DNA from: Deltaproteobacteria bacterium
GTDB taxonomy: Bacteria; Desulfobacterota; Syntrophia; Syntrophales; Smithellaceae
Direction of reading: 5' to 3'
Length of the DNA: 48,688 nt
Assembly (NCBI GenBank): GCA_025361065.1
Contig: JANYAY010000090.1
Span: forward strand, 1 to 48,688
This document shows, piece after piece, positions 4,569 to 8,003 of the stretch. A program made the position numbers and the translations under genes. A model generated the notes under the pieces. That model was not told the origin of the DNA and ran no database searches. It saw only the letters and a program-made list of their open reading frames with translations. Position 1 is the stretch's first letter. Each line of letters begins with the position of its first letter.

Positions 4569-5111
4569 TCAGTCCACCAGCATGAGGCAATAGTCGTTAT
4601 GTGTATCCTCTTTTTCCTTGAGGGTTGTGATGAAAAAACCGTTGTTCCGGGCTGTCTGAAAAACGTCGATGCCGCAGGCCTCCATGGCCGGCCGGACTCG
4701 TCCCATATGCATACAGGGATTTCCCGTCAGAATGCCGCATTTTTTGCATTTGAGGCAGGGACCGGAAAGGAACACGAAAGCCTTGTAGTAGCCGTCCTTG
4801 AACATGGTTCCCTCCAGTTCGATAAGCATGTCCATATAGGCCTTGTAACGCTTCCCCCGGCCTTCCGCTGCCGGAGCCTCGATGTGAAGAAGAATGGCCC
4901 GCCCGTAAGAATCCAGAATTGCCCTCGTCTGGTCGTACGTAGGCGTGTGCGGCGGACAGCAGTGTCCCATCCCATAGACGGGACAGCCGAATTGACATTT
5001 AATCCTCACCCATGGTGCTGTTACGACGCTGCCGGGATGAATAGGAACGGCATCGGTCGCCCCTCCATCCAGGGCAATACGACAATATTTTTCCAAATCT
5101 TTTTGCGGCAT
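4569..5111 (-). CDS. DUF2284 family cysteine-rich metal-binding protein
   Basis: A 180-residue soluble protein starting at MPQKDLEKY, preceded by AAGGAG; the open frame extends upstream into the DUF1295 gene but without a site. It holds two cysteine clusters typical of DUF2284: CQFGCPVYGMGHCCPP near the N-terminal third, and CLKCKKCGILTGNPC with a later Cys in the last third. Family proteins are predicted metal- or Fe-S-binding and common in anaerobes; no reaction is established. It lies 31 bases after the DUF1295 gene in the TetR operon, suggesting a shared process with the SDR and the membrane protein. Confidence 0.85.
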   Translation of the reverse strand: MPQKDLEKYCRIALDGGATDAVPIHPGSVVTAPWVRIKCQFGCPVYGMGHCCPPHTPTYDQTRAILDSYGRAILLHIEAPAAEGRGKRYKAYMDMLIELEGTMFKDGYYKAFVFLSGPCLKCKKCGILTGNPCMHMGRVRPAMEACGIDVFQTARNNGFFITTLKEKEDTHNDYCLMLVD

Positions 5112-7516: not shown

Positions 7517-7924
7517 CTATGATTTATTGGATTGATTGTACTCCATGATCGCCGCAACAACCTTGCGGGGATCAAAATAAACTTCATTGCGACGGATCTT
7601 CCCGAGATCGTCGAATTGCACCAGTCAGACACCGACGCATTCGACAACCTTTTCGCCAACCGGTATCCGGGCCAACCATTTGCATAGGAAACCGCCTTCC
7701 ATGGGAATCGCCTCGATCTGCGTCCAGACCCAATTGGGATTCTGGCCCAATAGATTGCGGAAGTGCGCGAGAAGTTTATCCTTACCTTGTACTCCCCGCG
7801 GCACTAGATGATCGGCATAGAACGCATCATCGGAATAAAAACTGGCCAATTTTTCCGGATCGTTGCCGGTCCAGGCAGGCAGCCATCGCGAGGTAAATTC
7901 CTTTGCCTGTTCCTTTGTTTTCAT
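7517..7924 (-). CDS. NTF2/SnoaL-like protein with in-frame TGA: candidate selenoprotein
   Basis: Conventional reading gives 99 residues (7924 to a TGA at 7627-7625), which is short for this fold. In the same frame reading continues for 35 more codons to TAG at 7519-7517, giving LVQFDDLGKIRRNEVYFD and a helix. The KIRRNEVYFD segment is the conserved last-strand motif of SnoaL/NTF2-like proteins, so the region after the TGA is coding-like. Full length would be 135 residues, normal for the family. The TGA would be residue 100 in ECVGV-x-LVQF. A strong hairpin begins 11 bases after it. Either selenocysteine is inserted here, or a nonsense mutation or base-call error (TGC or TGG to TGA) has split the gene. 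The N-terminus has a normal ribosome-binding site (AGGTGAG). Confidence 0.7.
7590..7613 (-). promoter_or_regulatory. SECIS-like stem-loop after in-frame TGA
   Basis: On the minus strand, CGACG+ATCT pairs with AGAT+CGTCG around the five-base loop CGGGA, with one bulged C on the 3' arm: nine base pairs. It begins 11 bases after the TGA and the loop starts 20 bases after it, with G at loop position 2. This fits the known bacterial SECIS pattern (loop about 16-37 bases from the UGA, G in the first two loop positions). It is inside the coding frame, as bacterial SECIS elements are. Confidence 0.55.
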
Positions 7925-8003
7925 GATTTCTCACCTTTGATGTTTTGTCTTGAGTTTTGCCTTATTGGTTTCCGACCATGATTATCGGATTATCGATACA
8001 TTC

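Follow-up and report, generated by a model that had tools for sequence, protein, structure and literature searches.

A SnoaL-like/ketosteroid-isomerase-like gene is located at positions 7517-7924 on the reverse strand of the window, the whole stretch of 48,688 nucleotides under analysis. After an ATG at 7924, which is preceded by a Shine-Dalgarno-like AAGGTGAG judged by eye (7930-7937, reverse strand), the reading frame runs through 99 codons to an in-frame TGA at codon 100 (7625-7627, reverse strand), the proposed selenocysteine codon, and over a further 35 codons including the segment KIRRNEVYFD to a TAG at 7519-7517, to give 135 residues if the UGA is read through. This continuation of the frame had been put forward in a first-pass annotation and is confirmed by sequence and translation. 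The gene passes the Pfam cut-off for SnoaL_2 (PF12680; 38.4 versus 27 bits), while the best NCBIfam model, TIGR02096 'ketosteroid isomerase-related protein', is matched below its cut-off (41.9 versus 97.1 bits). One copy was found in the organism's own genome. Nine neighbour proteins from six loci share no common theme; they match M19 peptidase, DcuC, DUF2059, SurE, 4HBT and C_GCAxxG_C_C or, under the cut-off, HTH_18 and PNPOx-like models, and one is without a match. UGA also serves as a stop codon, with 48 of 204 simple gene calls from the window and 17 stretches ending in TGA. Elsewhere in the window, a DUF2284 gene ends in a TGA stop (4569-4571) and an SDR gene comes next in its frame, with 275 codons open, which is probably an ordinary arrangement of tandem genes.

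The occupancy of residue 100 was compiled from 46 loci (L011-L045 and L065-L075), of which L045 stops short of the site; the window gene (L009) and the sister gene under its entry L010 were left out, the latter being the same as L039, which forms the TGA row. Among the 45 loci reaching the site, 37 encode Cys (21 TGC and 16 TGT codons), seven encode Asp and one has TGA, whereby the 37 Cys rows represent about 35 genes, as L040 and L041 repeat L013 and L012, respectively, at the same positions. Homologues were matched in 34 of 155 genomes of the order and in 16 of 395 sampled genomes of the phylum, and a scan of a contig collection gave seven loci; order and phylum matches without an extracted locus were judged by the stop column and not by residue 100. 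Cys in most homologues and a TGA in a few had been named beforehand as marks of a selenocysteine codon, and both are found, the TGA in a second species. Asp at this position, on the other hand, had been named as a sign against it. Asp forms do exist, but as a distant subgroup (7 of 45 loci) with 43-52% identity to the window protein, compared to 50-73% for the Cys forms, and all homologues above 53% identity have Cys or TGA; among the Cys forms, L044 is no closer than the Asp forms.

Downstream of the site, the RNEVYFD block is invariant in alignment A1, which comprises 26 sequences, the two TGA genes and 24 Cys loci. The Cys forms match the window protein on average at 69% of the positions before residue 100 and at 80% over residues 101-118, and the frame past the TGA is therefore a normal part of the protein. 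No further TGA orthologue was encountered among the matches in the 155 genomes of the order, in 155 genomes searched as class and in the 395 genomes of the phylum, and the scan of the contig collection gave L039 as the only TGA locus. In these searches, the TGA form is thus confined to two species of one genus.

The second species is represented by the uncultured delta proteobacterium AlinenLipids_bin-4002, with the TGA at codon 100 on CAIVQG010000072.1 (locus L039, which agrees in contig number and coordinates with the gene of genome G027). Upstream of the TGA, the two genes differ in 35 of 99 codons (28 of the differences synonymous) and in 38 of 297 bases, while downstream a single one of 35 codons differs (Fisher p 9e-5); at third positions the differences amount to 27 of 99 versus 1 of 35 (p 0.0014). 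Across an alignment of 2.26 kb, the two species differ least in the TGA-to-stop stretch (7517-7627, reverse strand), with one difference in bases 7624-7517; of 2154 segments of 108 bases, the nine that lie on this stretch have the fewest differences (1, compared to a median of 13). At the third-position rate of the gene, at most one change per 105 bases has a probability of 1.2e-13, and at its overall rate of 9.4e-6. A dead frame would be expected to diverge more than this, and the conservation of the frame past the TGA goes far beyond what chance would give; judged by this comparison, selected coding sequence continues past the UGA. The low divergence continues 3' of the hairpin described below as far as the stop codon, although a SECIS element does not need so long a stretch; an extra RNA constraint or recombination may contribute, neither being a firm explanation. 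Downstream of the TGA, the two genes are near-identical in their bases, so that covariation or compensatory changes lend no support to the hairpin.

The SECIS-like hairpin (7590-7613, reverse strand) has a stem of nine base pairs, interrupted by one bulged C and capped by the five-base loop CGGGA, and folds with -8.1 kcal/mol. It begins 11 bases after the TGA, with 20 bases to the loop and a G at loop position 2, and the nine pairs, the distance and the G that the first-pass annotation had read from the letters are reproduced by the fold. The bSECIS rules as given in PMC13188914 call for a loop of 3-9 bases with G among the first two, a stem of 4-16 bp, a spacing of 16-37 bases and an energy of at most -7.5 kcal/mol, and the hairpin agrees with all four in our own coding of the rules. 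The same coded rules are, however, also passed by 7 of 47 ordinary TGA stops of the genome and, among the Cys orthologues, by 7 of 36, L040 being left out of the 37 Cys rows for this count. The hairpin as proof of selenocysteine was rejected for this low specificity, which the first-pass annotation had missed in its use of the hairpin as evidence. The folding energy is ordinary as compared to shuffled sequences (z -0.76; equalled or bettered by 43 of 200 shuffles), and a 71-base fold including the TGA favours pairs with upstream bases (z -0.49), while folds beginning after the UGA give the hairpin. A narrower rule, with a spacing of 16-26 bases and a loop N0-1-G-G/U, which was picked after the hairpin was known, passes 1 of 47 TGA stops, 1 of 36 Cys orthologues and both fdhA sites of the genome, while its selD site, taken as that of a known selenoprotein, fails. 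The hairpin is thus compatible support for selenocysteine, weak when taken alone.

The presence of selA, selB, selC and selD in the same genome had been proposed as a check, and all four are found. The genome, a draft (3.95 Mb in 186 contigs, 97% complete, 3.94% contamination), encodes the selenocysteine machinery with selA at 608 bits, selB at 364, selD at 379 and tRNA-Sec at 70.9, all on contigs other than that of the window, and tRNA-Sec is over the cut-off in all three other genomes of the genus searched. The genome also holds other TGA-bearing selenoprotein genes. Its selD has a TGA in the context GAG-U-ACK and a hairpin loop CGGGC in a 48-base fold, which resembles the loop CGGGA of the candidate gene. 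An fdhA gene (L076; 899 bits, over the cut-off) has a TGA at 1894 before HSVT and a loop GGUCU, and an fdhA-like gene (L079; 195 bits for its best piece, under the cut-off) has a TGA at 1924 of the reverse strand before HSPT. The candidate resembles the FdhA and SelD selenoproteins in its in-frame UGA, its Cys orthologues, a hairpin within 16-37 bases and the full selABCD set.

With respect to structure, the protein is assigned a ketosteroid-isomerase (NTF2/SnoaL) fold on the predicted model, an AlphaFold2 model from seven sequences with a mean pLDDT of 90. The first Foldseek match of this model is a ketosteroid isomerase (KSI) variant (2.6e-8), and VIA-align superimposes the predicted model on KSI 1oh0 over 123 residues with a Z of 18.5, an rmsd of 2.2-2.3 and 16% identity. 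A profile alignment with the KSI of Pseudomonas putida by hhalign (probability 73%, E 3e-5), which is backed by the fold match, pairs residue 100 with Asp103, Asp38 with Asp40 and Trp14 with Tyr16. In KSI, Asp40 is the general base, while Tyr16 and Asp103 form the oxyanion hole; in PDB titles of the structural matches, Tyr16, Asp40 and Asp103 appear as mutation targets. The likeness to KSI extends over residues 1-124 of the fold and to the general base, codon 38 (7811-7813, reverse strand) being Asp throughout the 26 sequences of A1. The oxyanion hole differs, however, as Tyr16 and Asp103 of KSI are opposed by Trp14 and Cys or Sec100 in the candidate. At residue 100, the distant relatives have Asp, in agreement with KSI. 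The match of residue 100 to Asp103 had escaped the first-pass annotation and emerges from the profile alignment.

In the model, strands 78-89 and 92-104 are joined by a two-residue turn, which should place residues 81 and 100 opposite one another. Judged by this strand register, codon 81 (Cys; 7682-7684, reverse strand) encodes the predicted cross-strand partner of residue 100. Among the aligned sequences, a Cys at residue 81 is limited to the two TGA proteins; the other 24 of the 26 sequences of A1 have Asn, and the six Asp forms, which alignment A4 with its 16 sequences was picked to take in, have Leu. As the TGA lineage has this Cys81 on the neighbouring strand, a selenenylsulfide pair may form between it and Sec100. 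The proposed Sec100 is part of neither a CxxU nor a UxxC motif in the sequence.

Cumulatively, these results favour, with a probability of about 85% for the explanation as a whole, a protein of the KSI fold in which UGA100 is read as selenocysteine by means of SelB and the hairpin and in which Cys81 may act as a partner. Against it count the unexceptional hairpin, a TGA seen in two species of one genus, the low divergence that reaches past the hairpin, the draft genome with its sel genes on other contigs and the second UCA tRNA described below. SelB with Sec-tRNA-Sec would recognize the hairpin (7613-7590), starting 11 bases past the UGA, and codon 100 would be decoded as Sec. The Sec would take the place of the Cys of the close orthologues, at the position of the oxyanion-hole Asp103 of KSI, with the general-base Asp (D38) kept, while the TGA lineage would have gained Cys81 on the neighbouring strand in contact with Sec100. 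Within the pocket, Sec100 may have a redox or nucleophilic role. The suggestion of the first-pass annotation that residue 100 is Sec is supported by the exchange between Cys and TGA, the second species, the sel genes and the bSECIS rules.

Another candidate for decoding UGA is a second tRNA-Sec-like gene on contig C127 (12460-12553, minus strand; L002:1501-1594), which has a UCA anticodon, U73 and a tRNA-Sec-like body. Such a tRNA was matched in 20 of 59 genomes, the own genome included, all from the same family, and the TGA-bearing sister has one. All 20 aligned sequences have U73, and ARAGORN reads UCA in 19 of 20, with GGA in L121. U73 also occurs in tRNA-Gly. As G73 has been concluded to be essential for tRNA-Sec (PMC5330540), the second UCA tRNA with its U73 is not regarded as a second tRNA-Sec. 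On the other hand, tRNA-Cys species of the selC* type with U73 and in some cases UCA are described, among others, for delta-proteobacteria (PMC7609411, citing Mukai et al. 2017), with an 8/4 acceptor/T arm with bulged A51a as a feature, and selB* is given in PMC7609411 for two selC* subgroups only. The second tRNA shares with selC* tRNA-Cys the tRNA-Sec-like body, the UCA anticodon and U73; its sequences can be drawn by eye as 8/4 or 7/5, and no bulged A was recognized. It is probably a selC*-type tRNA-Cys, which would make Cys its amino acid. Differing from those selC* systems that have a selB*, the own genome shows one SelB over the cut-off; the second-best SelB hit, on C103, was rejected as it reads by eye as EF-Tu, and neither selB nor cysS was seen by eye when the reading frames in 3.1 kb surrounding the second tRNA were inspected. 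Two cysteinyl-tRNA synthetase (CysRS) genes are over the cut-off, one of them on C52 about 7 kb from selB. On C103 (L126:1456-3807), a frame of 783 residues joins, by eye, a cysteine-synthase-like part to a full-length cysteinyl-tRNA synthetase downstream of it. That this enzyme is the CysRS* without anticodon domain of PMC7609411 was rejected, as it covers positions 2-464 of the CysRS model.

As the second tRNA resembles selC* tRNA-Cys, UGA100 might at times be read as Cys, wholly or when selenium is short. The alternatives considered by the first-pass annotation, nonsense mutation and base error, did not include such an insertion of Cys, which the presence of a UCA tRNA of the Cys type turns into a serious alternative. 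Cys at residue 100 would work, as the close orthologues have Cys there, and the U73 UCA tRNA in both TGA-bearing organisms and the two CysRS genes are consistent with it. A reading by the second tRNA is nevertheless unlikely in view of the SECIS-like hairpin after the UGA, the complete selenocysteine pathway, the other TGA-bearing selenoprotein genes and the single SelB found, with no selB* among the hits. Moreover, the second tRNA does not go with the gene, as genome G025 has the tRNA and no match to the gene was found there. Sec is favoured over Cys by the selenocysteine pathway and the hairpin. A TGA that acts as a genuine stop or arose by nonsense mutation, leaving a 99-residue product or a pseudogene, would fit the normal use of TGA as stop in 48 of the 204 gene calls, but is quite improbable: the same TGA is followed by an intact frame in both species despite their divergence, with a single change over 105 downstream bases, and a stop would, according to the model, cut one strand short and remove the final strand and helix, including RNEVYFD. 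An error of base calling or assembly that turned TGT or TGC into TGA, which the first-pass annotation had also named, is extremely unlikely, as the assembly of another species, made separately and differing in 38 of 297 upstream bases, has the TGA at the same codon. Both alternatives of that annotation are thus disfavoured by the TGA and the conserved frame in the second species, and selenocysteine remains the preferred reading of codon 100.

The first-pass annotation knew of no NTF2-like proteins among the published selenoprotein families, which agrees with the inventory consulted: among the 119 selenoprotein families and subfamilies in Table 1 of PMC13188914 (2026), judged by name and number, none is given as SnoaL, NTF2 or PF12680, and these terms were not found in its main text either. 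By this table, the candidate differs from the known bacterial selenoproteins. A search of paper listings showed no natural NTF2-like, SnoaL or KSI selenoprotein, and a prior mention in subscription papers is possible. Very probably the locus is a real selenoprotein gene of a family absent from the Table 1 inventory, with the usual bacterial decoding. A more far-reaching proposal combines a new KSI-fold selenocysteine family, with Sec in place of the oxyanion-hole Asp and the lineage-specific Cys81 as partner across the sheet, with a UGA codon that in this genus could be read as Sec or Cys, the selenium supply possibly deciding between the two forms of the protein. The double reading would follow from a Cys-type UCA tRNA in a genome with one SelB found, and the combination as a whole is tentative and rather doubtful.

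The majority of characterized selenoproteins have, according to PMC13188914, a thioredoxin-like fold and a redox motif. If true, the finding would place selenium in a KSI-fold pocket, where acid-base chemistry is the known function, and would suggest that this protein carries out redox or nucleophilic chemistry. Related bacteria have Asp, Cys or TGA forms of the protein, so that what selenium contributes at a single site can be compared directly among them, and the second UCA tRNA would make the choice between Sec and Cys at natural UGA codons testable.
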